DNA of 64,000 nt from Sinomonas cyclohexanicum (GTDB taxonomy: Bacteria > Actinomycetota > Actinomycetes > Actinomycetales > Micrococcaceae). Each line of letters begins with the position of its first letter. Within the stretch, counting starts at the first letter, position 1. A model generated the notes under the pieces. It saw nothing but the letters and a program-made list of their open reading frames with translations, was not told the DNA's origin and searched no databases. The stretch covers positions 3,162,001 to 3,226,000 of the forward strand of contig NZ_AP024525.1 in the NCBI RefSeq assembly GCF_020886775.1, written 5' to 3'. The position numbers and the translations under genes are program-made. Below, in pieces: positions 3,975-40,678 of this stretch.

Positions 3975-4007
3975 CCCAACGAGCACACCCCACCGGAACC
4001 TTCGCGT

Positions 4008-4047
4008 CAGAAGGTGACCCCCAGATCTAGAGGTCAGGTCCTGCGGG
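4008..4047. repeat. 14-bp repeat array, right part
   Basis: The array resumes after the insertion: AAG (4011-4013) completes unit 3, and GTGACCCCCAGATC (4014-4027) is unit 4. Downstream, GGGTCACC (4044-4051) is the inverted partner of GGTGACCC (4013-4020), so the array could fold. The stop codon of the minus-strand regulator (4050-4048) lies inside this inverted arm. Confidence 0.7.
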
Positions 4048-4722
4048 TCACCAGATGCGGCGGTCCGCTGCCCAGCGGGAGAGCTCGTGGCGGTTGGTCA
4101 GCTGGAGCTTGCGCAGCACGGCCGAGACGTGGGTCTCCACCGTCTTGACCGAGATGAACAGCTCCTTCGCGGTCTCCTTGTACGAGTACCCGCGGGCGAT
4201 CAGCCGCATGACGTCGAGCTCCCGGGCGGAGAGCTTGTCCAGCTCGTCGTCGGCCACGGACTGGGTGCCGAATGCGTCGAGCACGAACCCTGCGAGGCGG
4301 GGCGAGAACACGGCGTCGCCCTCGGCGACGCGGAGCACGGCGTCGGTGATCTCACGCCCCGAGGCCGTCTTGGTGACGTAGCCGCGGGCCCCGGCACGGA
4401 TCGTGGAGACCACGTCCTCGGCGGCGTCCGAGACGCTCAGGGCGAGGAACCGGACCTCGGGCAGGAGCGCGGCGCAGCGGGTCAGGACCTCGCGGCCGCC
4501 CCCGCCGAGCCCGCCGGGCAGGTGGACGTCGAGCAGCACAACCCGCGGGCGGAGCTCCTCGACCGCCTCGACCGCCCCTTCCACCGTGCCGGCCTCGCCG
4601 ACGACCCGGACACGCTCGTCGAGATCGGCTTTGAGGCCGGAGCGGAAGATCGTGTGGTCATCCACGATCACCACGGTCACGGGGTCTGCGCCCCCGCGTG
4701 CAGCATCGGTGTCCTCGCTCAT
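4048..4722 (-). CDS. LuxR/NarL-family response regulator
   Basis: 224 residues. The receiver domain (about 15-135) has the acid pair D21-D22, phospho-acceptor D65 in VVLLDVHLPG, a conserved Ser (LALSVSD) and Lys (YVTKT). The C-terminal GerE helix-turn-helix (about 158-220) carries LSARELDVMRLIARG and ISVKTVETHVS. It overlaps the upstream histidine kinase by 4 nt (ATGA), so the two form a two-component pair. The partner kinase bears a PspC domain, which points to envelope stress. The likely targets are the PspC/toastrack genes just beyond the kinase, by inference only. Confidence 0.93.
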   Translation of the reverse strand: MSEDTDAARGGADPVTVVIVDDHTIFRSGLKADLDERVRVVGEAGTVEGAVEAVEELRPRVVLLDVHLPGGLGGGGREVLTRCAALLPEVRFLALSVSDAAEDVVSTIRAGARGYVTKTASGREITDAVLRVAEGDAVFSPRLAGFVLDAFGTQSVADDELDKLSARELDVMRLIARGYSYKETAKELFISVKTVETHVSAVLRKLQLTNRHELSRWAADRRIW

Positions 4723-17804: not shown

Positions 17805-17838
17805 CAAGGCAGGAACACAGCCAAGGCAGGAACACAGC
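17805..17838. repeat. Perfect 17-bp tandem duplication
   Basis: CAAGGCAGGAACACAGC occurs twice head to tail (17805-17821 and 17822-17838) between the glnR stop and its terminator. The second copy runs into the first bases of the hairpin stem. No function is evident. Confidence 0.85.
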
Positions 17839-28108: not shown

Positions 28109-28160
28109 GCCCCCATCATCGCGCGGGATGCGGACGGATCCGGTCCGCACACGTCCGCAG

Positions 28161-28249
28161 ATTCTGGGAGTCACGTTCTGGGGGCCACATCACGTGCCCC
28201 CCAGAAGATGACACCCAGAAGATGCCACTCAGAAGGCGACCCCCAGACG
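28161..28249. repeat. 14-bp repeat array: two inverted plus four direct units
   Basis: Left units ATTCTGGGAGTCAC (28161-28174) and GTTCTGGGGGCCAC (28175-28188), a 5-bp centre ATCAC, then four units in the opposite sense: GTGCCCCCCAGAAG, ATGACACCCAGAAG, ATGCCACTCAGAAG, GCGACCCCCAGACG (28194-28249). The whole can fold as an imperfect hairpin and lies at the 3' end of the thiolase gene, whose stop codon (28231-28229) and last codons are built from the units. A terminator or attenuator role is plausible. Confidence 0.8.
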
Positions 28250-29497
28250 GGGGGCGGGCCAGCGCTCGAGGAGGAGCGCGTCGCCCTGGCCGCCTCCGCC
28301 GCACAGCGCCACGGCGGCCCTGCCGGAGCCCCGGCGCAGCAGCTCGTGCACAGCCGTGACGACCACGCGCGCGCCCGAGGACCCGATCGGGTGGCCGATC
28401 GCGATCGCCCCGCCGTTGACGTTGACGCGCTCCATCGGCACGCCCAGCAGGTCCGCGGAGTGCGCCGCCACGGTCGCGAACGCCTCGTTGACCTCGACGA
28501 AGTCGAGCTCCCCGGCGGACCAGCCCTCGCGCGCAAGCGCCGCGGCGATGGCCTTCGCGGGCTTGTCCGGCAGCGTCGTATCCGGCCCGGCGATCTGCCC
28601 GTGGGCGCGCACGACGGCGAGCACCTCCAGCCCGCGACGCTCGGCTTCCGCTCGGGTCGTCAGCACCACGGCGGAGGCCCCGTCGGAGATGGGCGAGGCG
28701 TTGCCGGCGGTGACGGTGCCGTCCGCGGAGAAGGCCGGGCGGAGCCGGGCGAGGGTCTCGGGCGTGGAGTCGGGGCGGATGCCCTCGTCCTCGGTGACCT
28801 CGAGCACGGCGCCCTTGCGCTGAGGGACCTTCACCGGCACGATCTCGGAGGCCCACACCCCGGCCGCAAGTGCGGCGCCAGCGCGGACGTGCGAGGCCGC
28901 GGCGACGGCGTCGGCGGCCTCGCGGGTGAGCCCGAGGGCGGCATTGGCCTTGTCTGTCGCCAGGCCCATGGCCTCGTGGTCGAATGCGTCGGTGAGGCCG
29001 TCGTGTGCGGTGGAGTCGACGAGCTCCATCGACCCGTACGCGGACCCTGCGCGCGTCCCGGCGAGCAGCCGCGGCGCCTGGCTCATGGACTCCTGGCCGC
29101 CGGCCACCACCACGGACGCTTCCCCGAGGCGCAGCATCCGCGCGGCCTCGATGACCGCGGAGAGGCCCGAGAGGCAGACCTTGTTGACGGTGATCGCCGG
29201 CGCGGTGAGCGGGATCCCGGCCGCGACGGCGGACTGGCGTGCCGGGTTCTGGCCGGCGCCCCCCTGCAGGACGTGGCCCATGATCACGGCGTCGACGTCC
29301 TCGGCCGCCACACCGGCGCGGCCGAGCGCACCGGAGATCGCGGTCCCGCCGAGCTCGACGGCGGTCAGCGACGCAAGCTGGCCGAGGAGCCTGCCCTGCG
29401 GCGTGCGGGCGGCGCCGATGATGACGACGTCCTGAGGGGACGCGATGTCCTGAGGGGCTGCGCTGGGGCGGGAGGGCTGGGTCTCCGGGTTGCTCAC
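28229..29497 (-). CDS. Acetyl-CoA acyltransferase (thiolase)
   Basis: 422 residues from GTG 29497 with AAGGAG upstream; the first 20 residues are an unconserved extension. Thiolase residues: nucleophile C108 in NKVCLSGLSAV, GGQESMS, the C-terminal NVNGGAIAIGHPIGSSGAR with the catalytic His, and ALCGGGGQGDA with the second Cys. It cleaves 3-ketoacyl-CoA (or joins two acetyl-CoA). It is the last gene of the operon and overlaps the ligase by 4 nt. The C-terminus ends inside the 14-bp repeat array. Confidence 0.93.
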   Translation of the reverse strand: MSNPETQPSRPSAAPQDIASPQDVVIIGAARTPQGRLLGQLASLTAVELGGTAISGALGRAGVAAEDVDAVIMGHVLQGGAGQNPARQSAVAAGIPLTAPAITVNKVCLSGLSAVIEAARMLRLGEASVVVAGGQESMSQAPRLLAGTRAGSAYGSMELVDSTAHDGLTDAFDHEAMGLATDKANAALGLTREAADAVAAASHVRAGAALAAGVWASEIVPVKVPQRKGAVLEVTEDEGIRPDSTPETLARLRPAFSADGTVTAGNASPISDGASAVVLTTRAEAERRGLEVLAVVRAHGQIAGPDTTLPDKPAKAIAAALAREGWSAGELDFVEVNEAFATVAAHSADLLGVPMERVNVNGGAIAIGHPIGSSGARVVVTAVHELLRRGSGRAAVALCGGGGQGDALLLERWPAPRLGVAF

Positions 29498-31176
29498 TGT
29501 GCTCCTTCCGCCGCGATCGCCGCGAGGGCGCGCAGCTCGTGCTTGAGGGTCTTGCCCGTGGAGGTCTTGGGCAGCTGGTCGGTGAAGTGGATCTCGCGCG
29601 GGACCTTGAACCCGGCGAGGAGCCCGCGGACGTGCGCGGACAGGACCTCGGCGGTGAGCTCCGAGGCCCCGCCCCGGACCACGAAGGCCACGGGCCGCTC
29701 GCCCCAGCGCTCGTCCGGCATGCCGATCACGGCGACATCGAGCACGTCCGGGTGGGAGACGATGGCCTGCTCCACCTCGATCGTCGAGATGTTCTCGCCG
29801 CCGGAGATGACGATGTCCTTGGCCCGGTCCTTGAGTTGGATGTACCCGTCCGGGTGCATGACGCCGAGGTCGCCGGTGTGGAACCAGCCTCCGGCGAAAG
29901 CGCGCTCGGTCGCCTCGGGGTCCTTGTAGTAGCCGAGCATGACGTTGTTGCCGCGCAGCACGATCTCGCCGATCGTCCCTCCGTCGGCCGGGACGTCCCG
30001 CAGCTCGGCGCCCGTGCCGACCTCCACGACCCGCGCCGTCTCGGCCTGGACCATCCCCACGCCCTGGCGCGAAAGCTTCGCGGCCCGCTCGTCCGGGGAG
30101 AGCGAGTCCCATGCGGTCTGGTACTCGCACACCGTGTACGGCCCGTACACCTCCGTGAGCCCGTACACGTGCACCACGGTCGCGCCGAGGTCGCCGAGGC
30201 GGCGGATGATCGTCGGCGACGGCGGCGCTCCCGCCGTCGTGATCTTCAGCGAAACCGAGCCCGCCGCGCCGAGCTCGTGCGCCCGCTCGGCGTCGGCGAT
30301 GATCGAGCACACGGTGGGCGCCCCGCAGAGGTGGGTCACGCCGCCGTCGAGCGCGTCCCAGACCGCGTCGGCGCGGACCGCGCGCAGGCACACGTGCGTG
30401 CCGGCGGCCGCGGTGACTGCCCACGGCGTGCACCAGCCGTTGCAGTGGAACATCGGAAGGGTCCACAGGTAGCGGGTGGAGCCGTCGAAGCCCTGGTGGT
30501 GCGCCTCGCCCAGCGCGTTGAGGTACGCGCCGCGGTGCGAGTACAGCACGCCCTTGGGCTTGCCCGTCGTGCCGGAGGTGTAGTTGAGGGTGATCGGCGT
30601 CTGCTCGTCGTCGACGCCCCACGGCAGGTCCGGCCCGTCCGGCGCGCCCGCGAGGAGGTCGGCGTAGAGCTCGCGGCCCTCCCCCTCGCCGCTGGAGCGC
30701 ACGACGGCGGCGGCCGCCTCGTGCGCGCCCGGAACCTCCCCATCGGGCACCACGACGACTGGCACCCCGGCGGCCGGGCCGCCCAGGCGCGCGACGCCGT
30801 CGACCGTCTCGAGCAGTTCCGTGTCCGCGAACAGGAGCGCGGCCTCGGAGTGCTCGAGGATGTACGCGACCTCGTGCGCCGCGAGGCGCGTGTTGAGCGC
30901 CACGAGGACCCCGCCGGCGAGGGGCACAGCGAAGTGGGCGATGAGCAGCTCGGGCACGTTGGGGGCGAGGAACGCGACCCGGTCGCCGGGGGCGATGCGG
31001 GCGGCGAGGGCCTTGGCGAGCCGCTGGGCCGCGGCGCCGAACTCGGCGTACGTGTAGCGGCGGGCGCCGTGCTCGATGGCGACGCGGTCCGGGAAGACGG
31101 CGGCGGAGCGCTCGAGGAAGCGCAGTGGGCTCAGAGCGGAGTAGTTGGCCCGTGGCGTGTTGTTGGCGGCGTGCAC
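29494..31176 (-). CDS. Acyl-CoA ligase (AMP-forming fatty-acid/carboxylic-acid CoA ligase)
   Basis: 560 residues from GTG 31176 after AGGGG. ANL-family motifs: P-loop YTSGTTGKPKGVLYSH (about residue 195), LPMFHCNGW, VYGLTEVYGP, GWFHTGDLGVMHPDGYIQLKDR, and the C-terminal lysine in LPKTSTGKTLKHE. It activates a carboxylic acid with ATP and CoA to feed the adjacent beta-oxidation enzymes. HCNGW is typical of medium- and long-chain ligases, but chain length cannot be fixed. Confidence 0.93.
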   Translation of the reverse strand: MHAANNTPRANYSALSPLRFLERSAAVFPDRVAIEHGARRYTYAEFGAAAQRLAKALAARIAPGDRVAFLAPNVPELLIAHFAVPLAGGVLVALNTRLAAHEVAYILEHSEAALLFADTELLETVDGVARLGGPAAGVPVVVVPDGEVPGAHEAAAAVVRSSGEGEGRELYADLLAGAPDGPDLPWGVDDEQTPITLNYTSGTTGKPKGVLYSHRGAYLNALGEAHHQGFDGSTRYLWTLPMFHCNGWCTPWAVTAAAGTHVCLRAVRADAVWDALDGGVTHLCGAPTVCSIIADAERAHELGAAGSVSLKITTAGAPPSPTIIRRLGDLGATVVHVYGLTEVYGPYTVCEYQTAWDSLSPDERAAKLSRQGVGMVQAETARVVEVGTGAELRDVPADGGTIGEIVLRGNNVMLGYYKDPEATERAFAGGWFHTGDLGVMHPDGYIQLKDRAKDIVISGGENISTIEVEQAIVSHPDVLDVAVIGMPDERWGERPVAFVVRGGASELTAEVLSAHVRGLLAGFKVPREIHFTDQLPKTSTGKTLKHELRALAAIAAEGAQ

Positions 31177-31184
31177 GCGGGCCC

Positions 31185-32375
31185 CTACGCGAACGCGCCG
31201 ACGCCGGTGACGTCGCGCCCGATCAGGAGGGCCTGGACGCTCTCGGTGCCCTCGTACGTGTGGATCGACTCGATGTCCATCATGTGGCGGACCACGTGGT
31301 TCTCCAGCAGGATGCCGTTGCCGCCGAGCAGGTCCCGGGCCGTGGAGGCGATGAGCCGGGCCTTGCGGGTGTTGTGGTACTTGGCCATGGACGCCTGCGT
31401 GGGGCGCATCTCGCCGCGCGCGTCGAGGGCGGCGAGGTGGACGCAGTGCAGCTGCATGCTCGTGAGCTCGGCGAGCATCTGGGACAGGCGGTCCTGGACG
31501 AGCTGGAACGTGGCCAGCGGCCTGCCGAACTGGACGCGCTGGTTGGCGTAGTTCACGGCGGCCTCGTAGCACGCCGTGGCGTGGCCGAGCGCGGACCAGG
31601 CAACGCCGAGGCGGGTCGCGACGAGCACCTTCGAGGTGTCCTTGAACGTCTTGGTGCCCGGGAGCACGTTCTCGGCGGGGATCCGCGCGTCGGTGAGGCG
31701 GATGCGGGCCTGGTGGATGGCACGGAGCGAGCCCTTGCCGGTGATGACCTCGGCGTCGTAGCCCTCGGTGTCCTGCTCGATGAGGAAGCCGCGGACGTTG
31801 CCCTCGTCGTCGCGCGCCCACACGACCGTCACGCCGCCCGAGGCGCCGTTGCCGATCCACTTCTTCTCGCCGTTGAGGACCCAGTGGTCGCCCTCGCGGT
31901 GGGCGGTGGTCTCGAGGCTCACGGAGTCGGAGCCGTGGTCCGGCTCGGTGAGGGCGAACGAGCCGAGCTCCTCGCCGCGGGCCAGCGGGCCGAGCCAGCG
32001 CTCCTTCTGCGCCTCGGAGCCGTGGAAGGCGATCGAGCGGAGCGCGAGGCCGCCCTGGACCGCGACGATCGTGCCGAGGGACCCGTCCCCGCGGGAGATC
32101 TCCATGTTCACGAGGCCCGCCGCGAGGGGGCTCATGGGCTCGAGGCCGGGGACCTCGATCCCGTCCGCGAGGAGGTTGAGCTCGCCCATGCGCTTGGCGA
32201 GGTGGAGCGGGTACTCGGCGCGGTCCCAGTACTCGTTCATCTGCGGCAGGGCCTCGTCGATGAACGCGCGGGCGCGCCCCCAGTGGGCGCGGTCCTGGTC
32301 AGTGATGCTGCCGGACGCGGAGAACACCGCGTAGTAGTCGGTGTCGAGGGCTTCGGAGACGTCGTAGTCGGGCAC
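31185..32375 (-). CDS. Acyl-CoA dehydrogenase (glutaryl-CoA-dehydrogenase-like)
   Basis: 396 residues from GTG 32375 after GAAAGGA. FAD-binding and substrate blocks: GSFALTEPDHGSDS, WVLNGEKKWIGNG, QRVQFGRPLATFQLVQ, and the catalytic Glu in HTYEGTESVQALLIGRDVTG. The YEGT context resembles glutaryl-CoA dehydrogenase as well as short-chain enzymes. Electrons would go to ETF. Eight bp upstream of the ligase in the same operon. Confidence 0.92.
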   Translation of the reverse strand: MPDYDVSEALDTDYYAVFSASGSITDQDRAHWGRARAFIDEALPQMNEYWDRAEYPLHLAKRMGELNLLADGIEVPGLEPMSPLAAGLVNMEISRGDGSLGTIVAVQGGLALRSIAFHGSEAQKERWLGPLARGEELGSFALTEPDHGSDSVSLETTAHREGDHWVLNGEKKWIGNGASGGVTVVWARDDEGNVRGFLIEQDTEGYDAEVITGKGSLRAIHQARIRLTDARIPAENVLPGTKTFKDTSKVLVATRLGVAWSALGHATACYEAAVNYANQRVQFGRPLATFQLVQDRLSQMLAELTSMQLHCVHLAALDARGEMRPTQASMAKYHNTRKARLIASTARDLLGGNGILLENHVVRHMMDIESIHTYEGTESVQALLIGRDVTGVGAFA

Positions 32376-32385
32376 GGGATTCCTT

Positions 32386-33507
32386 TCAGCGGGCCAGGAG
32401 CGGGGTGAGCCCGCCGGCAGGGTAGTTGGCGCCGAGCACCATGCAGCGGTCGATGTCCTCCTCCGAGGCGACGACGCCCTCCGCGAGCATGATCTCGACC
32501 TCCTCGGCGAGGGCCACGCGGACGCGCTCGAGGACCCTGGCGGGGTCGACGGGCCCGGTCCCGGGCCCCTGCGCCAGGAGGGCGGCCGCCTCGGGTGAGA
32601 GGCCGCCGTCGTCCGCGAGGAGCCGGCGCACGCCGGATTCCGCGGCGGCGGCGAGCCACGGCGAGAGCGGGAACCGCTCGGGGAAGGCGCGGTGCATCGT
32701 GGCACAGATGTGCTGCTGGACGGCGGTGCCGATGTAGTCGATGAGTGTCAGCGGCGTCATCGGCAGGTTCCAGGGTGCGAGGGCCCGGTCGACGGCGAGC
32801 GGGTCACCGCCCGCGGCGGCGGTCGCCTCGGTCTCGGCGAGGACCTCCGCGAAGAGGCGCGTGAGGAGGCGGTTGACCACGAAGCCGGGCGCGTCCGCGA
32901 CCGGGACCGCCGTCTTGCCGAGCGCGGCGGCGAGGTCCGCGGCGGCGGCCATCGCTGCGTCCGAGGCGACCGGGGTTCGCACGAGCTCGAGGAGCGGCAG
33001 GACCGCGACCGGGTTGAAGAAGTGGAAGCCGACCACGCGCTCGGGGTGCTTCAGGGCCTCGGCCATCGCCTCGACCGAGAGGGAGGACGTGTTGGTCAGC
33101 AGGAGCGCGTCCGGGCCAATCGCGGCCTCGGCGGCGGCGAACACCTGGCGCTTGACCGACAGCTCTTCGAACACGGCCTCGATCACGGCGTCGCAGCCGG
33201 CGAAGTCCGCGGGGTCCGTCGTGCCGGTGATGAGCGCGGCGATCTCCTCTGCCTCGCCGGCCTGGAGGCGGCCCTTGGACTCGGCCCGCCCGAGGCGGGA
33301 CCGGATGCCGGCGAGCGCGGCGTCGACCCGCTCGGCGGAGAGGTCGCTCATCGTCACGGGGACGCGGAGCTGCTGTGCGAAGAGCGTGGCGAGCTGGCTG
33401 GCCATGAGGCCTGCGCCGATCACGCCCACGGCGGTCACGGGGCTCTGGGCGGACGACGGCGCGGGGCTGGCTGCCGCTGTCGGGGCGGCCGAGATGAGGT
33501 GGGGCAC
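32386..33507 (-). CDS. 3-hydroxyacyl-CoA dehydrogenase
   Basis: 373 residues from GTG 33507. The Rossmann site reads VGVIGAGLMASQLATLFAQ (about 27-45), with LTNTSSLSVEAMAE and the active-site His in GFHFFNPVAVLPLLE. A C-terminal 3HCDH domain and an extra tail follow. It oxidises 3-hydroxyacyl-CoA with NAD. This is the first gene of the four-gene operon; two palindromic operators flank its -35 region. Confidence 0.93.
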   Translation of the reverse strand: MPHLISAAPTAAASPAPSSAQSPVTAVGVIGAGLMASQLATLFAQQLRVPVTMSDLSAERVDAALAGIRSRLGRAESKGRLQAGEAEEIAALITGTTDPADFAGCDAVIEAVFEELSVKRQVFAAAEAAIGPDALLLTNTSSLSVEAMAEALKHPERVVGFHFFNPVAVLPLLELVRTPVASDAAMAAAADLAAALGKTAVPVADAPGFVVNRLLTRLFAEVLAETEATAAAGGDPLAVDRALAPWNLPMTPLTLIDYIGTAVQQHICATMHRAFPERFPLSPWLAAAAESGVRRLLADDGGLSPEAAALLAQGPGTGPVDPARVLERVRVALAEEVEIMLAEGVVASEEDIDRCMVLGANYPAGGLTPLLAR

Positions 33508-33522
33508 ACCCCCATGAAATCG

Positions 33523-33559
33523 TGAAACTCAGTCTCAGGTCAAGTGAAACGCCGTATCA
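33523..33559. promoter_or_regulatory. Twin TetR-type operators around the promoter of the fatty-acid operon
   Basis: Two 15-bp palindromes, TGAAACTCAGTCTCA (33523-33537) and TGAAACGCCGTATCA (33545-33559), share the pattern TGAAAC-N3-GTNTCA and are 22 bp apart centre to centre, about two helix turns. A minus-strand -35 candidate TTGACC (33543-33538) lies exactly between them. The second site contains the tetR stop codon. Binding by the adjacent TetR protein would block transcription of the operon. Confidence 0.75.
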
Positions 33560-34339
33560 CTTCTGGGCTGGGCGGCGTCCGAGGGCCTCCCTGACCTTCC
33601 GGGCGATGTCCTCCGGGGCCGCGGACCGCGGGAAGACGGCCACGACGATGTCGTCGGGGCGAGGTGCCTCGTCAGCACCCCCACTCTGGGTGAGCCTGCC
33701 GCGCGCGGCGGCAGGGCCGGCGTCGTGCGCGCCTGCGCCTCCGTCCTCGCCGGCGCTCTCCACCGGGGCCACGCCGAAGAGCCGGCGGACGGTGTCCAGC
33801 TCGGCGGTGAGGCGTCGGGCGTCGAAGCCGGGCTCGCCGCGCATGAGACCTCGGAGGCAGTAGTTCTGGGTCGAGACGACCGTGGCGGCGAAACGCACGG
33901 CGTCGAGCGGGTCGAGGCCGGGAAGCGCCGCGAGCAGGTAGCCGCGGAACAGCCTCTCGTAGCGGAAGGTCGTCACGAGTTCCTTGTCGCGCAGGCCGGG
34001 CTCGCGCCGCACGACCTCATAGCGCAGGTGTGCCAGATCCCCGAGTGCGGCGAAGTGCGCGAAGACGAGCTCCGCGGCCCGGCACACCGCCTCCCACGGG
34101 TCCGGGTGCGGCTCGGCGAGGAAGGCGCCGGCCTGTTCGAGGAGCGTGTCGTGGTCGGCGAAGACCACGTCCTCCTTCGAGCGGAACTGGCGGAAGAAGG
34201 TGCTCCGGGAGAGTCCGGCGGCCGCCGCGATCTGGTCGGCGCTCGTGGCCTCGTATCCGTGCTCGGCGTAGAGCCGCACGGCCACGGCAGCGACGTCGAG
34301 ACGGCGCCGGGCCGGATCGGGAACCCTGCGGTCGCTCAT
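33557..34339 (-). CDS. TetR-family transcriptional regulator
   Basis: 260 residues from ATG 34339. N-terminal helix-turn-helix (about 10-55) with LYAEHGYEATSADQIAAAAG and LSRSTFFRQFRSKEDVVFADHD. The ligand domain follows, then an unusual 60-residue Gly/Ala-rich tail containing AHDAGPAAARG and ending in a helical segment. It sits upstream of the fatty-acid operon on the same strand with twin palindromes between, so it most likely represses that operon until an acyl-CoA binds. Confidence 0.9.
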   Translation of the reverse strand: MSDRRVPDPARRRLDVAAVAVRLYAEHGYEATSADQIAAAAGLSRSTFFRQFRSKEDVVFADHDTLLEQAGAFLAEPHPDPWEAVCRAAELVFAHFAALGDLAHLRYEVVRREPGLRDKELVTTFRYERLFRGYLLAALPGLDPLDAVRFAATVVSTQNYCLRGLMRGEPGFDARRLTAELDTVRRLFGVAPVESAGEDGGAGAHDAGPAAARGRLTQSGGADEAPRPDDIVVAVFPRSAAPEDIARKVREALGRRPAQK

Positions 34340-34365
34340 GGCTGCTCCCTCCGCACTGTGCGCGC

Positions 34366-35430
34366 TCACAGCTCGAGCCCGATGAGCAGCGGCTCGTTGT
34401 GCAGCTCGATCCCGAAGCGGGCGCGGACGCCGTCGCGCACTTCGCGGGCGAGCGCCAGGAGGTCCTTGGCCGTCGCCTCGCCGCGGTTGGTCAGAGCGAG
34501 CGTGTGCTTCGTGGACAGGGACGCCCGGCCGCCCGAGACGCTGTCCGGCGCGAGGCCGTGGCCCTTCGGGAAGCCCGCGTGGTCGATGAGCCACGCGGCG
34601 GACGTCTTGACGAGCCCCTCGCCAGCCGGGTAGCGCGGGGCGCCCTCCGGGAGCGCCGCGGCCTCTGCCTCGGTCAGCACCGGATTCGTGAAGAACGAGC
34701 CGGTCGAATACGTGTCCCGGTCGGCCGGGTCGAGGACCATGCCCTTGGACGCGCGCAGCCGCAGGACCTCGCGGCGCACGTCCGTCGCGTAGGCGCGCTG
34801 GCCCTGCTCGACTCCGAGCGCGCGGGCGAGCTCCGCGTACCGGACCGGCGCGCCCATGCGGCCCAGCGCGAGCTGGAATTCGACGGTCAGCACCACGTAG
34901 CGCGGCGAGCCGTTCACGGTGGTCCGCTTGAGGATCGAGTCGCGGTAGCCGAACTTCAGCTCGGAGGGGACGAAGGTGCGGACCGCGCCCGCCTCCCGGT
35001 CCCACGTGCGGACCTGCCAGACGGTCTGCGAGACGTCCTGCCCGTACGCGCCGACGTTCTGCACGGGCGTGGCGCCTGCCGAGCCGGGGATGCCCGAGAG
35101 GGCCTCGACTCCACTGAACGCGTGGTGCACGGCGTGCTCGACGAACGCGTCCCACGGGTGTCCCGCCTGGACCTGGACGGAGACGCCCCCGCACGAGTCG
35201 GCCGAGTTGACGGCGAGCCCCTCGGAGGCGATCTTCAGCACCGTGCCGGGGTAGCCATCGTCGGACACGACGAGGTTCGAGCCGCCCGCGATGATCAGCA
35301 GCGGCTCGCCGGCGGCGTCCGCCGTGCGGACGGCATCGATGATCTCGGCCTCGGTGCGCGCCTCCTCGAAGCGCGCCGCCGGGCCGCCCACGGCGGAGGT
35401 GGTCAGGGAGGACAGGAGGGTCTGGCTCAC
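34366..35430 (-). CDS. murB: UDP-N-acetylenolpyruvoylglucosamine reductase
   Basis: 354 residues from GTG 35430. FAD-binding signature LLIIAGGSNLVVSD and ALSGIPGSAGATPVQNVGAYGQ, catalytic Ser in DTYSTGSFFTNPV and the C-terminal Glu in ELHNEPLLIG. MurB reduces the enolpyruvyl group to make UDP-MurNAc, a peptidoglycan precursor. TAAGCT (35442-35437), part of which is the stop codon of the MFS gene, lies 6 nt before the start: leaderless start likely. Confidence 0.95.
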   Translation of the reverse strand: MSQTLLSSLTTSAVGGPAARFEEARTEAEIIDAVRTADAAGEPLLIIAGGSNLVVSDDGYPGTVLKIASEGLAVNSADSCGGVSVQVQAGHPWDAFVEHAVHHAFSGVEALSGIPGSAGATPVQNVGAYGQDVSQTVWQVRTWDREAGAVRTFVPSELKFGYRDSILKRTTVNGSPRYVVLTVEFQLALGRMGAPVRYAELARALGVEQGQRAYATDVRREVLRLRASKGMVLDPADRDTYSTGSFFTNPVLTEAEAAALPEGAPRYPAGEGLVKTSAAWLIDHAGFPKGHGLAPDSVSGGRASLSTKHTLALTNRGEATAKDLLALAREVRDGVRARFGIELHNEPLLIGLEL

Positions 35431-35439
35431 CCGTCAAGC

Positions 35440-36801
35440 TTAGGCGGTGACGGGGGCGACGGTCCGCCGCGCAGCCTGGCCGGCCAGGGCCACGGAGATC
35501 ACGACAAACAGCAGCACAGTCAGGAGCGAGTACCGCACGCCCGTGAACTCGGCGACGAACCCGAGCAGCGGCGGCCCGCAGAGGAACGCGCCGTAGCCGA
35601 TCGTCGAGACGACCGAGACGCGGGCCGCGGCGTGGACGGGGTCGTCCGCGGCGGCGGACATGCCGACGGGGAAGCCGAGCGATGCGCCCAGCCCCCACAC
35701 CACGAGGCCCGCGAACGCGAGCCACAGCGCGGGCGCGAGCACGAACAGCGCGAGCCCCACGAGCGCGAGGATGCCGCACACGCGCAGGGCCGTGACCCGG
35801 CCGTGCCGGTTCAGGACGGGGGTGCCGAGGAACCGGCCGGCGGCCATCGCGCAGACGAACACGCTGTACCCGGCCGCGCCGGCGGCCTGGGAGACCCCGT
35901 ACCCGTCCGCGAGCGCGAGCGCCACCCAGTCCCCCGCCGCACCCTCCGCGAGCGCGAGGCCCAGGACCATGACACCGAGCAGGACCGTGCGGCGGTCCCT
36001 CCACGCCGCCGCGACCTGGGCGCGGCCGCCCGGGGAGTCCGCCGCCGCAGGGGCCGCGGCCTCTGCCGCTGCCGACTCCCCTTCCGCGGCGGCGAGCACG
36101 GACGACGGCGCGCGCTGCCCGGCGGCGACCGGGCCGCCGTCGTGCGTCCGCGCCCCACCGGCGGCAGCGCCTGCCTCGCGCTCGCGGCGCGCGACGTCGG
36201 CCCGGAGGAACGTCCCGGCCGTGACCACGGCGCCGGCCACGACCACGCCGGCGATCCCGAGGTGCCACGCGAGCGGTACCCCAACGGCGGCGGCCCACGC
36301 GCCCAGGATGGCACCGGCCACGGTGCCGAGGCTGAACGAGCCGTGCAGCCGGGGCATGATGAAGCGCTTCAGGGCTCGCTCCACCGCGGCGCCCTCGACG
36401 TTCGAGGCTGTGTTCCAGCTCGCCGTCCCGAGACCGATCACGGCGAAGCCCACGGCGGCGGCCACGGTTGACTGGAACACGCTCGCTCCGAGGCCGAGCA
36501 GCACCAGCCCGGCCCCCACGAGGACCGATCCGGCCTGGATGGTCCGGGCGGAGCCCAGCCGGATCACGATGAGCCCAGACGCCGAGACGGACGCGAACGA
36601 GGCCAGCGTCATGCACAGCAGGAGCAGGCCGACGCCGGCGGGCGTGAGGTCAAGGTCGGTCCTCAGCGCGGGGACGCGTGAGACCCAGCTCGAGAACGCG
36701 AGCCCGCTCGCCGCGTACGCGGCCACGACAGCAAGGTGCCACCGCCGGACGTCCACCGGGACGGCCGGCGCGGAGGCTGCCGGCGCGGGGGCGCGGGTCA
36801 T
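35440..36801 (-). CDS. MFS transporter (12 helices, long central loop)
   Basis: 453 residues. Twelve predicted helices. The central loop between helices 6 and 7 is unusually long (about 210-270), low-complexity and Ala/Gly-rich, and holds RTHDGGPVAAG. No substrate motif is recognised; the overall pattern resembles fucose-permease-like or Bcr-type MFS. The gene ends 9 bp before murB and follows hadB by 10 bp, so it may be co-transcribed. Confidence 0.85.
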   Translation of the reverse strand: MTRAPAPAASAPAVPVDVRRWHLAVVAAYAASGLAFSSWVSRVPALRTDLDLTPAGVGLLLLCMTLASFASVSASGLIVIRLGSARTIQAGSVLVGAGLVLLGLGASVFQSTVAAAVGFAVIGLGTASWNTASNVEGAAVERALKRFIMPRLHGSFSLGTVAGAILGAWAAAVGVPLAWHLGIAGVVVAGAVVTAGTFLRADVARREREAGAAAGGARTHDGGPVAAGQRAPSSVLAAAEGESAAAEAAAPAAADSPGGRAQVAAAWRDRRTVLLGVMVLGLALAEGAAGDWVALALADGYGVSQAAGAAGYSVFVCAMAAGRFLGTPVLNRHGRVTALRVCGILALVGLALFVLAPALWLAFAGLVVWGLGASLGFPVGMSAAADDPVHAAARVSVVSTIGYGAFLCGPPLLGFVAEFTGVRYSLLTVLLFVVISVALAGQAARRTVAPVTA

Positions 36802-36811
36802 TCCGGTCGGC

Positions 36812-37255
36812 TCAGCCGAGCCGGACCACGGCCTGGGCCTTGGTCAGCACCCGCTGGCCGGCGCTGGTGACCGTGAGGTCGATGCGCGCTGTCCGCGCCT
36901 CGGGGTCGAGGGCTCCGACCGTCCCCACGATCTCGAGGACCGCTCCCGGCTCGTCCGTGCCGGTCGTGTCCGCGACGGGGACCGGCTTCGTGAAGCGCGT
37001 CTGGTAGTCGACGACGGCGCCCGGGTCGCCCGCCCAGTCGGTGACGAGCTGGACGGCCGCACCCATCGTGAACATCCCGTGCGCGATCACCCCGGGCAGC
37101 TCGACGGCGGCGGCGAAGTCGTTGTTCCAGTGGATCGGGTTGAAGTCCCCGGACGCCCCGGCGTACTTCACGAGGTCGGAGCGTGTCACGGGGACCTCGC
37201 GCCTGCCGATCTCGGCGCCCTTCTCGAGGCTTTCGAAGGCCGGCGTCCGGCTCAC
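36812..37255 (-). CDS. MaoC-type dehydratase HadB-like
   Basis: 147 residues from GTG 37255 within the hadA stop (GTGA overlap). Hotdog fold with the hydratase-2 motif YAGASGDFNPIHWNNDFA (catalytic Asp and His) and GVIAHGMFTMG. In mycobacteria HadB pairs with HadA as the 3-hydroxyacyl-ACP dehydratase; here membership in fatty-acid or related lipid synthesis is likely. murB nearby is a common arrangement in actinobacteria. Confidence 0.88.
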   Translation of the reverse strand: MSRTPAFESLEKGAEIGRREVPVTRSDLVKYAGASGDFNPIHWNNDFAAAVELPGVIAHGMFTMGAAVQLVTDWAGDPGAVVDYQTRFTKPVPVADTTGTDEPGAVLEIVGTVGALDPEARTARIDLTVTSAGQRVLTKAQAVVRLG

Positions 37256-37713
37256 TGGCCCTCCCCCCTCACAAGGATCGACGAGACGGTCGTGGCGACC
37301 TTGCCGCCGCCGTTCCCCTCGCCGACCGCGGTGATCTCAGCGCGCGTGGTGATCATCGCCCCGCCGCCCATCGCGCGGACGGTGTCCACGTGCAGCTCTG
37401 CGCTCAGGCGGTCTCCCGCGACGATGGGCCGGTGGTGCGTGAAGCGCTGCTCGGCGTGCACCACGCGGGAGAAGTCGATGCCGGACTCGGGGTCCGCGAT
37501 GAGCTGCGCGTCCGCGCGCTGGGCCACGATGATCGCGAACGTCGGCGGCGCGACGAGGTCTGCGTGTCCGAGGGCGTGCGCGGCCTCGACATCGTAGTGT
37601 GCGGGATGCTCTGCCTTGACGGCGCGGGCGAACTCACGGATCTTCTCGCGGCCGACGTCGTACACCTCGGCGGGCGGGTAGACGCGACCGGCGAGGTCGG
37701 GGTTGATGGCCAT
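37252..37713 (-). CDS. FAS1-like dehydratase HadA-like
   Basis: 153 residues. Hotdog domain with the N-terminal VYPPAEVYDVGREKIREFA and AHALGHADLVAPPTFAIIV, typical of HadA/C (MaoC_dehydratase N-type), which lack their own catalytic dyad and need HadB. TAGGCT (37725-37720) lies 6 nt before the ATG, suggesting a leaderless start. Coupled to hadB. Confidence 0.88.
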   Translation of the reverse strand: MAINPDLAGRVYPPAEVYDVGREKIREFARAVKAEHPAHYDVEAAHALGHADLVAPPTFAIIVAQRADAQLIADPESGIDFSRVVHAEQRFTHHRPIVAGDRLSAELHVDTVRAMGGGAMITTRAEITAVGEGNGGGKVATTVSSILVRGEGQ

Positions 37714-37808
37714 GGTGAAAGCCTATCGGGTGGCACCGGCTCTCTGGGGGCTGGCCCACGGACGTGCCCACGCGTACCGTGCACCGTGAGCCCCGAGGGA
37801 GGTGCCAC

Positions 37809-38318
37809 ATGCCGGATCCTGGACTGCTACTCCAGCTGGCGGAGATCGCCGGGATCTTCGTGGGCTTCGGGGCACTCATCAGCGTGAGGAGTGCTGATTC
37901 AAGCGACCCGTTCGTCGTCTCGACAATACGGTATGTCACGTGGGTGGGGGTCTGGGTCCTGATGTCTTCACTCACCCCGGCGGCTCTCAGCCGATTCGGC
38001 TTGGCCGGACGCACTCTCTGGCTCCCGTCCGCTGTGCTCGCACTCGTCCTCTTCGTCGTCCTGTGGTTGACGGACACCTTCTCTCCCGAATCGAAGTCAT
38101 TCGGGAAGATGGACTCTCGGCCGCTGCTGAGGCTCAGGGCACTCTACCTGGGCGTCGGAGGGCCCCTCGTTCTGGGGCTTATCGGCTCGCTCGTCGTTGT
38201 GGCCCTGGACATCTGGCCCGAGGCTGCGCAGGGCCTCTACTTCGCGGCCGTCTCCCTGGGGATGGCGCTTGCCGGACTGACTCTGCTGACGGTGGTCTTC
38301 ATCGCACCGCACCGGTGA
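37809..38318 (+). CDS. Four-helix membrane protein of unknown function
   Basis: 169 residues; ATG after GAGGGAGGTGCCAC. Helices at about 6-25, 40-60, 72-95 and 115-165. No motif recognised. Its codon choice is slightly less GC-biased (third positions with more T and A), which may mean recent arrival. It stands alone, divergent from hadA. Confidence 0.6.
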   Translation: MPDPGLLLQLAEIAGIFVGFGALISVRSADSSDPFVVSTIRYVTWVGVWVLMSSLTPAALSRFGLAGRTLWLPSAVLALVLFVVLWLTDTFSPESKSFGKMDSRPLLRLRALYLGVGGPLVLGLIGSLVVVALDIWPEAAQGLYFAAVSLGMALAGLTLLTVVFIAPHR

Positions 38319-38333
38319 GAGGGGATTGACGGT

Positions 38334-38357
38334 ATGATGGATTCATCAATCCATCAT
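38334..38357. promoter_or_regulatory. ArsR-type operator before arsR-sulP
   Basis: A near-perfect palindrome with 10-bp arms, ATGATGGATT and AATCCATCAT, around CATC, 23 nt upstream of the arsR start. A-T rich against a GC-rich background. It overlaps a TATGAT hexamer (38333-38338). This is the expected position for autoregulation by the downstream ArsR protein. Confidence 0.7.
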
Positions 38358-38380
38358 CTGGATGCCAGGAGGGCCTGCCC

Positions 38381-38788
38381 ATGTTCAGCGACCGCGAGGC
38401 GCCGCTCTACGAGATCAAGGCGAACCTGTTCAAGGGCCTCGCCCACCCCGCGCGCATCCGGATCCTCGAGATCCTCGCCGACTCCCCCGGCCAGTCCCGC
38501 CCGGTGAGCGAGCTCCTCGAGGGCACGGGCCTCGAGGCCTCCCACCTGTCCCAGCACCTCGCGACGCTGCGCCGCCACCGCGTCGTCACGAGCGTCCGCA
38601 CCGCCAACAGCGTCACCTACTCGCTCGCCCACCCGAAGATCGCCGAGCTCCTCGCGATCGCCCGCACCTTCCTGCTCGACACCCTCACCGACACCCGTGA
38701 GCAGCTCGAGGCGGCCTCGGCCCTGCCCGCGGTGGGCGCCGGACCCGTGCTCAGCACCGCCTCGACGCACGACGGCGCAGCGCGGTGA
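38381..38788 (+). CDS. ArsR-family regulator
   Basis: 135 residues; ATG follows AGGAGGG. Winged helix: KGLAHPARIRILEILADSPG, then SELLEGTGLEASHLSQHLATL (recognition helix). It lacks the ELCVCD metal site, so it is not an arsenic-type sensor. Overlap of 4 nt with sulP (GTGA) shows it controls the transporter. The C-terminal tail is low-complexity and contains THDGAAR. Confidence 0.9.
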   Translation: MFSDREAPLYEIKANLFKGLAHPARIRILEILADSPGQSRPVSELLEGTGLEASHLSQHLATLRRHRVVTSVRTANSVTYSLAHPKIAELLAIARTFLLDTLTDTREQLEAASALPAVGAGPVLSTASTHDGAAR

Positions 38789-40530
38789 GCGCCGCCGACT
38801 CGCCCCGCGCAGGGCTCGTCCCTCGCGGCACCGCTGGCCGACTGCTCGGCGGCGCGGTGGCCCTGCTTCCCCACGCGTCCGACTACGCCTCGCTGCGGCG
38901 GACCTGGCGCGGCGACCTCCTCGCGGGCCTCACCGTCGGCATCGTCGCGCTCCCCCTCGCGCTCGCGTTCGGCGTCAGCTCCGGCGTGGGCGCCGAGGCC
39001 GGGATCGTGACGGCGATCGTCGCTGGCCTCGTCGCGGCCGTCTTCGGCGGCTCACACGTGCAGGTCTCGGGGCCCACGGGCGCCATGGTCGTGGTCCTCG
39101 CCCCGATCGTCGCCTCGCACGGGGTCGGCGCGGTCGCCCTGCTCTCGGTCATGGCGGGGATCCTCATCGTGCTGCTCGGCGCATCGCGGCTCGGCCGGGC
39201 GGTCGCGTACATCCCGTGGCCCGTCGTGGAGGGATTCACGCTCGGGATCGGGGTCATCATCTTCCTGCAGCAGGTGCCGCCCGCGGTGTCCGCGCATGTC
39301 GCGCCGGGGCAGAACACAGCGGTCACCGCGGCAGAGGCGATCGGCGCGGCGCCGTGGCCGCGCGCGGTGGCGAGCATCGGCGTCGTCGTGCTCGTCGCGG
39401 CGGTGACGCTCCTGGTCCCGCGGATCCACCGGGCACTGCCGGGGAGCCTCATCGCGATCCTCGTCGCGACGCTCGGAGTGGGCCTCCTGGGGCTCGACGT
39501 CGAGCGGATCGGCGCGCTGCCCACGTCGCTCCCGGCGCCGTCGCTGCCTGGCGTGACCCTCTCGGACCTCCCGGAGCTCGCCGGGCCGGCCCTCGCGATC
39601 GCGGCGCTCGCGGCCATCGAGTCACTGCTCTCGGCGCGGGTGGCCTCCGGGCTCACCGGCCCCGACGGCCGGACGACTGGCCCCTACAACCCGGACCGCG
39701 AGCTCGTCGGCCAGGGCCTTGCCTCGCTCGCCGGCGGCCTGTTCGGCGGGATGCCGGCCACCGGGGCGATCGCCAGGACCGCCGTCAACGTCCGCTCGGG
39801 CGGGCGCTCGCGTGTGGCAGCGATCGTGCACGCGTTGGTGCTCGTGGGCGTCGTCTACCTCGCCGCGCCGCTCGTGGCGCAGATCCCCCTTGCCGCGCTC
39901 GCGGGCGTGCTCATGGTCACGGCCGCCCGGATGGTCTCGGTGCGGACGGCGCGCCGGATCCTCGGCTCCACGCGGCACGACGCCCTCGCGTTCGTGCTCA
40001 CCGCCGTCATCACCGTCTCGTTCGACCTCATCGTGGCGATCCAGATCGGACTCGTCGCCGCAGCCCTGCTCACGCTGCGCCAGTTCGCGAAGCTCGGCGG
40101 AGTCCGGCGCGAGCCGATCGCCGGCCCGGCGCACGACGGCGACGAGCACATCGCCGTCTTCCGGCTCGACGGCCTCATGTTCTTCGGGGCGGCGGAGAGG
40201 ATCCTCGAAGAGATCGCCGGCCTCGCCGCGGTCCAGGGCGTCGAGGTCGTCGTGCTGAGGCTGTCCCAGCTCAGGTATCTCGATGCGACGGGGGCACAGG
40301 CCCTCGTCGAGGTCATCCGGACCCTCGAGGCGCGGGGCATCACGGTGCTGCTCAAGGGCGTTCAGGACCAGCACCTCGAGCTCGTCCGCAGTGTCGGGGT
40401 CATCGCGGAGCTGCGGCACCACCGGCATCTCTTCGACTCCCTCGCGGACGCCGTGGAACACGCCCGGAGCCACGTGCGCCGCGCCCGGGCCCACACCGCG
40501 AGCGCTGCGGGCCCCACCCCCTCCGCCTGA
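38785..40530 (+). CDS. SulP-family anion transporter with STAS domain
   Basis: 581 residues from GTG. About ten to twelve membrane helices, SulP signature around GDLLAGLTVGIVALPLALAFG and the conserved FGGSHVQVSGPTGAM and GLFGGMPATGAIARTAVN. A cytoplasmic STAS domain (about 445-555) has LDATGAQALVEVI. A linker with PAHDGDEH joins the two. The family moves sulfate, bicarbonate or other anions; substrate cannot be set. The stop codon lies in the first unit of the 14-bp array that follows. Confidence 0.93.
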   Translation: MSAADSPRAGLVPRGTAGRLLGGAVALLPHASDYASLRRTWRGDLLAGLTVGIVALPLALAFGVSSGVGAEAGIVTAIVAGLVAAVFGGSHVQVSGPTGAMVVVLAPIVASHGVGAVALLSVMAGILIVLLGASRLGRAVAYIPWPVVEGFTLGIGVIIFLQQVPPAVSAHVAPGQNTAVTAAEAIGAAPWPRAVASIGVVVLVAAVTLLVPRIHRALPGSLIAILVATLGVGLLGLDVERIGALPTSLPAPSLPGVTLSDLPELAGPALAIAALAAIESLLSARVASGLTGPDGRTTGPYNPDRELVGQGLASLAGGLFGGMPATGAIARTAVNVRSGGRSRVAAIVHALVLVGVVYLAAPLVAQIPLAALAGVLMVTAARMVSVRTARRILGSTRHDALAFVLTAVITVSFDLIVAIQIGLVAAALLTLRQFAKLGGVRREPIAGPAHDGDEHIAVFRLDGLMFFGAAERILEEIAGLAAVQGVEVVVLRLSQLRYLDATGAQALVEVIRTLEARGITVLLKGVQDQHLELVRSVGVIAELRHHRHLFDSLADAVEHARSHVRRARAHTASAAGPTPSA

Positions 40531-40659
40531 GAGTCGGCTCCTGAAGGTCAGCTCCTGAGAGTCAGCTCCTGAAGGGCGCCTTCTGCGGGTCAAGGCGCTG
40601 GACGTGACTGTCAGGAGGTGACCTTCAGAGGGTGACTCCCAGGAGGTGACTCTTAGACG
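40524..40659. repeat. 14-bp repeat array: five direct and four inverted units
   Basis: Left, from 40524: CGCCTGAGAGTCGG, CTCCTGAAGGTCAG, CTCCTGAGAGTCAG, CTCCTGAAGGGCGC, CTTCTGCGGGTCAA (to 40593). Right, inverted, from 40604: GTGACTGTCAGGAG, GTGACCTTCAGAGG, GTGACTCCCAGGAG, GTGACTCTTAGACG (to 40659). It lies between the convergent sulP and a membrane gene. The sulP stop (TGA 40528-40530) is part of unit 1. The two halves can pair as a long hairpin, so a bidirectional terminator role is plausible. Confidence 0.85.
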
Positions 40660-40678
40660 CAAGTGGGTGGGGCAGGCG

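Follow-up and report, generated by a model that had tools for sequence, protein, structure and literature searches.

Within a 64,000-nt stretch of Sinomonas cyclohexanicum DNA, here called the window, three sets of 14-bp tandem units stand at the ends of genes, raising the question of what kind of element they represent and what role they may have there. Our analysis identifies them as members of one intergenic repeat of Sinomonas, which is dispersed, quasi-palindromic and modular in build. In full form the repeat runs from a cap (CGTCTG..) through n 14-bp units, a core and n further units to a closing cap (..CAGACG), with arms that are sometimes unequal or absent.

Construction of the arrays in the window

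By direct reading of the sequence the 14-bp unit steps as GTGACYYYCAGRAG, and the two-unit pattern matches the window eight times at up to three mismatches, compared with a maximum of zero across 100 dinucleotide shuffles. A preliminary description had claimed strict 14-bp spacing, a unit-centre-inverted-unit build for two of the arrays, and stop codons lying in or against the arrays. All three points hold: the step is exact inside every arm, arrays 2 and 3 are both mirrored (array 2 has two reverse and then four forward units around a 5-nt centre, array 3 five reverse and then four forward units around a centre of 10 nt), and the thiolase, sulP and LuxR-type response regulator stops all fall inside units (Table 1). 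The gene behind array 3 is a 74-aa ORF with no Pfam match at E 0.001 and not the LuxR-type gene, whose stop belongs to array 1.

Array 1 had been given as a pair at 2425-2463 and 4011-4027. The repeats are real, but the coordinates are better placed at 2425-2466 and 4014-4051, and the two pieces are best read as a single array that an IS110-family insertion, about 1.49 kb long, has split. This insertion lies in the palindrome of a companion element, element B, whose first 37 bp recur at 92-100% identity at ten further loci of the same genome (30 bp only at locus L127). We infer the ends of the insertion from an intact copy of element B at locus L120, with an ambiguous 3-bp core, TTC.

Table 1. 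Coordinates of the window arrays, their flanking stop codons and element B
Feature	Position	Strand	Remarks
Array 1, first piece	2425-2466	+	Three units; the last ends CAGCAT where element B starts
Element B (companion palindromic element), left half	2461-2508	+	Sequence matches at other loci
IS110-family insertion	2509-3995	+	Within the element B palindrome; transposase 2736-3974
Element B, right half	3996-4018	+	Continues beyond the IS110 insertion
Array 1, unit past IS110	4014-4027	+	14-bp unit
Array 1, two weak reverse units	4024-4051	-	First overlaps the preceding unit by 4 bp
Stop of LuxR-type response regulator gene (4048-4722)	4048-4050	-	Inside array 1 unit 4038-4051
Array 2, left arm	28161-28188	-	Two 14-bp units: 28161-28174, 28175-28188
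Array 2, centre ATCAC	28189-28193		5 nt; most frequent loop among the 31 five-nt cores (6 of them)
Array 2, right arm	28194-28249	+	Four units; cap CAGACG closes the last
Stop TGA of thiolase gene (28229-29497)	28229-28231	-	Within unit 28222-28235
Array 3, left arm	40524-40593	-	Five units; begins CGCCTGA
Array 3, centre	40594-40603		10 nt
Array 3, right arm	40604-40659	+	Four units; the final one ends TTAGACG
Stop TGA of sulP gene (38785-40530)	40528-40530	+	Provided by the first array unit

Extent of the family and its address at gene ends

The preliminary description called for a genome-wide search, which might have returned only the three window arrays. The family proved to be large, as the source genome (G000) contains 201 two-unit matches (96 + 105, at up to three mismatches) against none for the reversed-pattern control, and these fall in at least 66 clusters, built from the matches listed plus the window array and missing weaker arrays. 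A fixed unit profile recovers 484 units, with overlapping loci counted twice, and 53 in the reversed-sequence control. Free iteration of the profile was dropped when the profile drifted, because the unit, once shifted in register, nearly matches its reverse complement. Conservation within the unit is position-specific, with GTGAC and CAG almost fixed and YYY freely C or T, and arms comprise one to nine iterated units. At the outer ends CAGACG occurs at 58 of 155 edges and ACG at 72 of 155, the latter compared with 5 of about 390 inner units. Both directions are carried by 57 of 111 arrays and the other 54 are one-armed, a count inflated by the 60-bp grouping, which splits arrays with long centres. 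Unit positions 8 and 12 correlate, a pattern contrary to self-pairing that may merely mark two subfamilies.

A check against the gene calls upheld a 3'-end placement, with convergent gaps enriched, divergent gaps depleted and array edges a few nucleotides from stops. The 111 arrays, all with at least 700 bp of flank in the retrieved locus, comprise 47 in convergent gaps, 55 in tandem gaps, 6 in divergent gaps and 3 within called ORFs. In tandem gaps the upstream stop is closer than the next start in 46 of 55 cases (median 11 nt versus 90), 78 of 102 array edges lie within -10 to +30 nt of a stop, and the first unit frequently provides the TGA of the gene. Among gaps of at least 40 bp in the source genome, those with and without an array number 29 and 9 (convergent), 31 and 74 (tandem) and 3 and 37 (divergent), at loci picked for holding arrays (Fisher, 3e-9 for convergent enrichment and 2e-5 for divergent depletion); the window, which was not array-selected, holds arrays in 2 of 4, 2 of 25 and 0 of 7 such gaps, respectively. 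In genome G150, where 20 stretches were drawn from the 32 clusters among the matches listed and flanks of at least 500 bp were used, 24 arrays divide into 11 convergent, 13 tandem (13/13 closer to the stop) and 0 divergent. One-armed arrays in tandem gaps show no rule in how they face the gene (13 left-type, 17 right-type).

Only 7 of the 66 clusters of the source genome fall in the chromosome third opposite dnaA (p 3e-5). This origin-ward bias would be consistent with DNA-level protein-binding arrays, in which the 14-bp unit is the site of a putative nucleoid-associated or chromosome-organising protein and marks loci towards the origin. The position-specific conservation, the consensus retained in one-armed arrays and a strand-symmetric mismatch pattern point the same way. 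Such binding is nonetheless improbable in our view, as G150 shows no significant bias (6 of 32 clusters, p 0.09), a dissimilar 31-bp unit occupies a like address in sister species, and adjacency to stop codons is left unexplained.

A likeness to the core of the uptake sequence of Neisseria, GCCGTCTGAA, is seen in the cap CGTCTGA; inverted pairs of that sequence form terminators according to the available part of PMC1852404. An IS110 element is present inside the element B palindrome at several loci. These points would fit a DNA-uptake-like signal or an insertion-sequence landing pad that has been taken over at gene ends. Both are very improbable, since 66 array clusters among the matches listed compare with at least 1,000 copies for uptake signals in that same part of the source, and the insertion sequence sits in element B, outside the 14-bp units.

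Folding potential and the predicted role of the arrays

The 57 two-direction arrays have a mean folding z of -7.4 against mononucleotide shuffles, with 53 below -2, and the window arrays range from -5.5 to -7.5, values that none of 200 dinucleotide shuffles reached; the 54 one-armed arrays average -0.85, with 13 below -2. The arms covary in 31 five-nt cores (p = 0.0016) and in 25 second unit pairs (p = 0.0002), the outer core pair being C:G in 13 of 31 and G:C in 13 of 31, and the 31 cores are not wholly independent because five are orthologous, from the thiolase slot. Complementarity beyond the consensus is small across all two-armed arrays (10.49 versus 10.20 of 14, p 0.004) and about 2 s.d. 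in the source genome alone. Read in the transcript sense, tandem arrays hold 50 G.U and 54 A.C mismatches, and this near equality gives no sign of selection for RNA over DNA pairing. For 40520-40663 the predicted fold joins the outer bases to the cap at the other end, and for 28157-28253 it places most of the cap in the loop of a small hairpin formed locally.

At the 155 outer edges no T-tract enrichment was found behind the arrays (T 0.146 at nt 1-8, 0.131 at nt 15-25), and these edges lack the hairpin-then-T-tract form of a classical intrinsic terminator. Within convergent gaps the best hairpins have a median of -34.3 without an array (11 gaps) and -35.2 with one (29 gaps); array-free gaps fold with similar strength, and therefore a hairpin there needs no array. 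When the arrays are masked, the median remainder is 0 nt and 7 of the 29 gaps keep a hairpin of -30 or better, and masking is of limited value because the array fills most of the convergent gap and those 7 retain a hairpin.

We tentatively propose, with the chances about evenly balanced, that the arrays are modular palindromic repeats predicted to serve as two-way 3'-end hairpins, either terminators or RNA-end protectors. A transcript leaving the gene would run into the array and arm would pair with arm to give a long hairpin, one that is possible on both strands because the palindrome is symmetric. The hairpin could terminate transcription without a U-tract or, alternatively, could shield a 3' end left by Rho or RNases, and converging transcripts would thereby be held apart. 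The arrays would win and lose 14-bp units, trade units inside the genome, and arise or disappear at junctions. Of the three possibilities raised in the preliminary description (terminator, mRNA-stabilising hairpin, mobile miniature repeat), we favor a terminator or stabiliser as the first choice because the gene-end address and two-armed hairpin potential are supported, although the absence of a T-tract, the equality of G.U and A.C, the many one-armed arrays and the junctions without an array count against it. Such a role would bear on how transcription ends without U-tracts in GC-rich bacteria. For Streptomyces clavuligerus, also GC-rich, the available part of PMC8269248 reports that a U-tract is missing from 353 of the 535 structured 3' ends; these share with the arrays a stable 3'-end hairpin lacking a U-tract, but nothing there presents them as a sequence family that is repeated, bears caps and is built of units.

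The equal mismatch counts and the one-armed arrays without folding potential would also suit a selfish or neutral miniature repeat, spread by a transposase or by template switching and surviving where it is least harmful, at gene 3' ends, with the hairpin as a by-product of copying (palindromes corrected by strand switching) rather than a use. The scarcity in divergent gaps fits purging from promoters, the common caps (ACG at 72/155 outer ends) and similar core loops suggest common descent, and sister species differ in array presence at equal junctions. The mobile repeat of the preliminary description is partly borne out, by the dispersal of the arrays, their differing presence at one junction and the shared caps and core loops; no transposase was found in a genome-wide search for PF01797 only. 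Placement is also tighter than promoter avoidance would give, as seen in the edges close to stops, and one slot is maintained in five species despite unit turnover. On balance we doubt this reading while considering it a real contender, and the arrays bear in either case on how small palindromic repeats spread without a known transposase.

Described elements and turnover within Sinomonas

A title search of the open-licence PMC literature found nothing on the Sinomonas element itself among the matches listed. The statement that no element of this form was known is nonetheless only partly right, as the gene-end address, the palindrome in pairs or the modular construction recurs in REP, CGTC-REP and BOX elements. 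The closest kinds are REP/BIME, CGTC-REP and BOX, compared here with the available parts of the cited reports, and several defining REP features fail. REP/BIME/REPIN elements are short dispersed palindromes, frequently in inverted pairs, near 3' ends or between convergent genes (PMC3733652, PMC3116915), and the Sinomonas arrays are likewise dispersed, intergenic, palindromic and located at gene 3' ends and in convergent gaps. REPs are single 20-40-bp hairpins, whereas Sinomonas arms are tandem 14-bp runs. GTAG, the REP foot, is absent among the 25 commonest outer hexamers, and the RAYT Y1 transposase (PF01797) was found in 0 of 15 Sinomonas genomes, with 5 of 14 control genomes positive; REP/RAYT membership was rejected on these two absences.

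CGTC-REPs, reported from five phyla among which Actinobacteria are not included, combine a tag that stays unpaired and a CCA tail with an 8-9-bp stem whose first pairs are A-T, and no dedicated transposase is known for them (PMC3733652). The Sinomonas arrays resemble them in this last respect, in the CGTC at many outer ends, in the 5-nt loop of one core class, and in lying near ORF 3' ends in convergent and co-directional gaps. They differ in that iterated 14-bp units replace the short stem and CCA tail. As to the unpaired tag, the two predicted folds point different ways, with the cap paired to the opposite cap in array 3 and mostly in a local loop in array 2.

BOX modules are longer than the 14-bp units of Sinomonas. 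In Streptococcus pneumoniae, BOX elements have composite ends and variable tandem inner modules, are foldable and are over-represented between convergent genes (PMC3049150). Caps distinct from inner units and a variable unit number are found in Sinomonas as well, but the BOX order is A-Bn-C while Sinomonas arms are mirrored, and a comparable tie to stop codons is not described in the available part of that report. The TAACTGA heptamer arrays of Beggiatoaceae likewise recur between genes as numerous tandem runs of one short sequence in a genome; those units are 7 bp, mainly upstream of start codons and nearly all direct repeats, as far as the available part of PMC4679880 describes them.

The 14-bp family is abundant in 4 of 15 Sinomonas species, with units that are species-specific in sequence. 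The dominant unit elsewhere is 21 bp in one species and 31 bp in five of the 15, and in six of the seven species lacking the 14-bp family, a family with a unit of 21 or 31 bp is present with a similar build at a similar address. The 31-bp unit has no visible similarity to the 14-bp unit, yet takes a comparable gene-end position; its counts in G149 come from 20 stretches among the matches listed, and address counts for both families used flanks of at least 300 bp. Orientation strings of the 21-bp family were set aside as unreliable, given its loose near-palindromic pattern. Sister species differ in whether an array is present at one junction. The sulP junction is occupied by a 21-bp array in one species and by a different inverted repeat in another, and G150, G084 and G104 have no array, the genes there being called as an 11-nt overlap; the element is therefore dispensable in those three genomes. 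One slot has persisted in five species through turnover of its units, and unit numbers at one slot differ between species.

Outside Sinomonas only chance matches were found among the matches listed, in a search that may leave out own-genome records. A loose pattern run across 297 genomes of the order matched in 9, with 59 places in the source genome and at most 3 in any other; a wider family within the order was rejected, these being taken as chance. A general mirrored-array detector returned 0 intergenic matches and 1 in-gene match in 300 kb from 15 other genera, which is weak evidence because known arrays were missed: it recovered one of the three window arrays and none in random chunks of 7 of 8 other Sinomonas genomes, a set in which some genomes do carry arrays.

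A broader reading, which we consider rather unlikely, is that a process particular to Sinomonas has each lineage build mirrored gene-end tandem arrays from its own unit, homogenise that unit genome-wide and swap it between lineages. If so, the arrays would form a transposase-less class of iterated gene-end palindromes, with unit sequence free and architecture and address under selection. One genus with three unit families, much shared build and address, and both occupied and empty junctions among close relatives constitutes a natural experiment, in which transcript ends and read-through could be compared directly at one gene pair that has an array of 14-bp or of 21-bp units, a different inverted repeat or no element at all. 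Differences in unit number among near siblings could provide strain markers.

As a separate observation, G156 carries a 19-bp mirrored array that is nearly locus-specific, with three matches in 15 genomes, all in G156.

Build and abundance of the 14-bp arrays

The preliminary description placed three arrays of tandem 14-bp units in the window, each with the stop codon of a flanking gene in or against it, and the sequence confirms both the arrays and the stop codons of the thiolase, sulP and LuxR-type response regulator genes (see table). Eight two-unit matches at ≤3 mismatches occur in the window, against a maximum of 0 in 100 shuffles; Rfam at gathering scores returned three tRNAs there and nothing else. 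The segments at 2425-2466 and 4014-4051 are best read as a single array split by an IS110-family element, whose transposase carries PF01548 and PF02371 and which interrupts the palindrome of a further repeat, element B.

The proposed genome-wide search returned 96 + 105 matches to the 28-mer of two successive units (≤3 mismatches) in the window's own genome, G000 (one contig of 4,413,566 bp, dnaA at 1235), and the 28-mer read backwards as a control gave zero at the same threshold. The matches listed, plus the window array, form at least 66 array clusters, all parsed with a unit profile derived from 354 strict units. In this profile GTGAC and CAG hardly vary, and three free C/T positions are followed by R, a mostly A and a mostly G position. 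As read from the consensus, the unit GTSACYYYCWGRRR is in base classes identical to its reverse complement, the dyads being spaced by 7 bp. ACG stands at 72 of 155 outer array edges (as CAGACG at 58) and in 5 of about 390 inner units, indicating that the arrays have a preferred cap; in another Sinomonas genome, G150, 13 of 34 edges finish in ACG. Of 111 arrays as grouped here, 57 hold units in two directions and 54 have all their units facing the same way. Among 55 centres a 5-nt loop is the most frequent type (21; 31 such cores once further species were added), while longer centres span 7 to 52 nt and several contain a CCCGYGGGT-type core. Among the matches listed, G000 clusters are rare opposite dnaA (the middle third of the contig holds 7 of the 66, p 3e-5), and those of G150 show the same trend, which is not significant (6 of 32).

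Positions of array-associated features (window coordinates, or loci fetched from Sinomonas genomes)
Feature	Position	Remarks
Thiolase stop codon	28229-28231	inside array
sulP stop codon	40528-40530	inside array
LuxR-type response regulator stop codon	4048-4050	inside array
Element B halves	2461-2508 and 3996-4018	left and right half
IS110-family insertion	2509-3995	inside palindrome of element B
Element B elsewhere	L068, L092, L098, L100, L109, L110, L118, L120, L126, L127	92-100% identity, first 37 bp (30 bp at L127)

Address at gene ends

The suggested association with 3' ends was borne out, with convergent gaps strongly enriched and divergent gaps strongly depleted among loci preselected for holding arrays. 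Of 72 arrays in a first tally, 31 lay in convergent, 36 in tandem and 4 in divergent gaps, with 1 unresolved. The 111 arrays with enough flank (80 from G000, the remainder from other Sinomonas loci) divide into 47 in convergent, 55 in tandem and 6 in divergent gaps, plus 3 that fall within called ORFs, the genes being called with a purpose-made codon-usage caller rather than a published tool. In tandem gaps the upstream stop is the closer gene edge for 46 of 55 arrays. Offsets from array edge to nearest stop peak at -7 (14 of 102) and -4 (9 of 102), those at which CGTCTGA or GTGA provides the TGA. Among window gaps of at least 40 bp, which were not preselected, arrays occupy 2 of the 4 between convergent genes, 2 of the 25 between tandem genes and none of the 7 between divergent ones, and the 24 arrays of G150 comprise 11 convergent, 13 tandem (13 of 13 nearer the stop) and 0 divergent. 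The in-ORF arrays (L069:2401-2461, L082:2401-2428, L111:2401-2442) are either gene-calling errors or genuine in-gene arrays.

Folding, conserved junctions and a putative hairpin role

We infer that the array acts as a putative two-way 3'-end hairpin. The best support comes from its address, from the way two-armed arrays fold and their arms covary, and from other inverted repeats occupying the same place in two species. The 57 two-directional arrays fold far better than mononucleotide shuffles (mean z -7.4). Unit-by-unit arm complementarity is marginally above that of swapped arms in G000 alone (10.06 vs 9.79, s.d. 0.14) and slightly above it across four species (10.49 vs 10.20, p 0.004). It is clear in the 5-nt class (31 cores, including five orthologous cores from the thiolase slot, p 0.0016; 25 next pairs, p 0.0002), where C:G and G:C are equally common as the outer core pair (13 of 31 each). 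At the junction of sulP and a 74-aa gene, arrays are found in G000, G121, G153 and G154, those of G153 and G154 differing by one right-arm unit; G006 has a 21-bp repeat there and G037 another visible inverted repeat.

The main rival is that of a selfish or neutral repeat. What speaks most strongly against the hairpin role is that many arrays have one arm, that the sulP junction is empty in some genomes and that an RNA signature is missing. The 54 one-armed arrays show no folding gain over mononucleotide shuffles (mean z -0.85). No array is present at the sulP junction of G084, G104 and G150, where the two gene calls overlap by 11 nt, despite G150 and G084 being array-rich elsewhere. Transcript-sense G.U and A.C mismatches are equal (50 vs 54), giving no RNA signature, and thus arm pairing may be preserved at the level of DNA, e.g., through strand-switch correction, as well as through a function in RNA. 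The median best 60-nt energy is -34.3 in array-free convergent gaps (n=11) vs -35.2 in gaps with arrays (n=29); this fits a view of arrays as one form among several interchangeable hairpins, but it also means that strong hairpins do not depend on them.

Arrays of 5 to 9 units lie behind the thiolase gene in five species. G104 and G037 have no array in this slot, and unit-like sequence extends into their thiolase stop codon as either a seed or a remnant of an array. A third slot holds an array in G121 alone among eight genomes compared, and by eye the gene there finishes in the array cap. Unit composition is species-specific: the free positions read CTT in 31% of G150 units vs 11% in G000, and CCC in 4% vs 21%, and permuting species labels over whole arrays reached a maximum of 97.1 in 2000 trials vs 120.1 observed. 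Together with the conserved junctions, this points to units probably being exchanged or re-spread within each genome.

Distribution, sister families and associated repeats

The 14-bp family is a genuine palindromic repeat specific to Sinomonas, capped and built from units, present in high copy and located where genes end. Exact two-unit matches occur in 34 stretches, all Sinomonas, in a collection of one genome per species (84,980 species); within the bacterial family, 5 of the 149 genomes have a match and all 5 are Sinomonas (1 of 32 genera), and among the matches listed an order-wide search gave only chance-level matches beyond G000. Eight of 15 Sinomonas genomes carry the family, as judged by the core pattern in which the first free position is T. 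Of the seven without a core-pattern match, six have another family, and none of the 14-, 21- and 31-bp families was found in G155.

These sister families are similar in build (caps aside) and address. The 21-bp family (GGTGACCCCGCAACGCAGGGA-like) has 39 matches in G006 and 1 to 3 in five further genomes; its 29 groups are 13 convergent, 8 tandem, 5 divergent and 3 inside called ORFs, a divergent depletion that is not significant (p 0.17). The 31-bp family (TTTCGGGTACAGATAATC) has 176 matches in G149, 115 in G156, 65 in G152, 37 in G135, 26 in G151, 17 in G121 and 8 in G000; G006, G153 and G154 have 2 matches apiece, and five genomes have none. Its 23 arrays in G149 step by 31 bp (70) or 32 bp (11), and 14 are two-directional, 7 of these with at least 2 units each way. 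They comprise 12 convergent, 10 tandem and 1 divergent. Just 7 of the 10 tandem ones are closer to the stop, with medians of 79 and 186 nt, so that the gene-end fit is looser than that of the 14-bp family. Visual comparison shows GGTGACCCC...CAGGGA in both the 14- and the 21-bp unit, and no clear resemblance of the 31-bp unit to either. Mirrored tandem arrays of 31/32-bp and 19-bp units also lie between convergent genes in G156 (L170:14900-15150 and L169:13289-13422), the 31-bp units being the high-copy family and the 19-bp units nearly locus-specific.

In the excerpted text of PMC3733652, GTAG and CGTC REPs are described at a gene-end address identical to that of the 14-bp arrays, and the modular build of BOX, as excerpted from PMC3049150, resembles theirs. 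On the unpaired CGTC tag the predicted folds differ: at window 40520-40663 the outermost bases pair with the opposite cap, and at 28157-28253 the cap falls mainly within the loop of a small hairpin of its own. Membership among REPs fails on the RAYT, the GTAG foot and the short stem with tail, as far as the excerpted sources define them, and the arrays are accordingly filed under the broad kind of dispersed intergenic palindromic repeats, as a variant.

Element B (CAGCATGGGGGCGCCGCC...GGTTCTTCGAACC...) is more uniform and lies within or adjoining many 14-bp arrays. The IS110-family element adjoins it at several loci. L116 has a copy with 99.7% identity across 1501 bp, and shorter matches lie at L092, L100, L118 and L126; the copies at L092 and L100 appear to be themselves interrupted. 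The element looks like an IS targeting a repeat, which fits the specific insertion of some IS into REPs noted in the excerpt of PMC1525189. A third inverted repeat, GCACGACGGCG...CGCCGTCGTGC, occurs repeatedly at gene ends (window 2366-2420, L113, L117) and fills the sulP junction of G037 (L131). A perfect 17-bp tandem duplication (CAAGGCAGGAACACAGC) lies at window 17805-17838, roughly 30 bp past position 17773, where a called gene ends.
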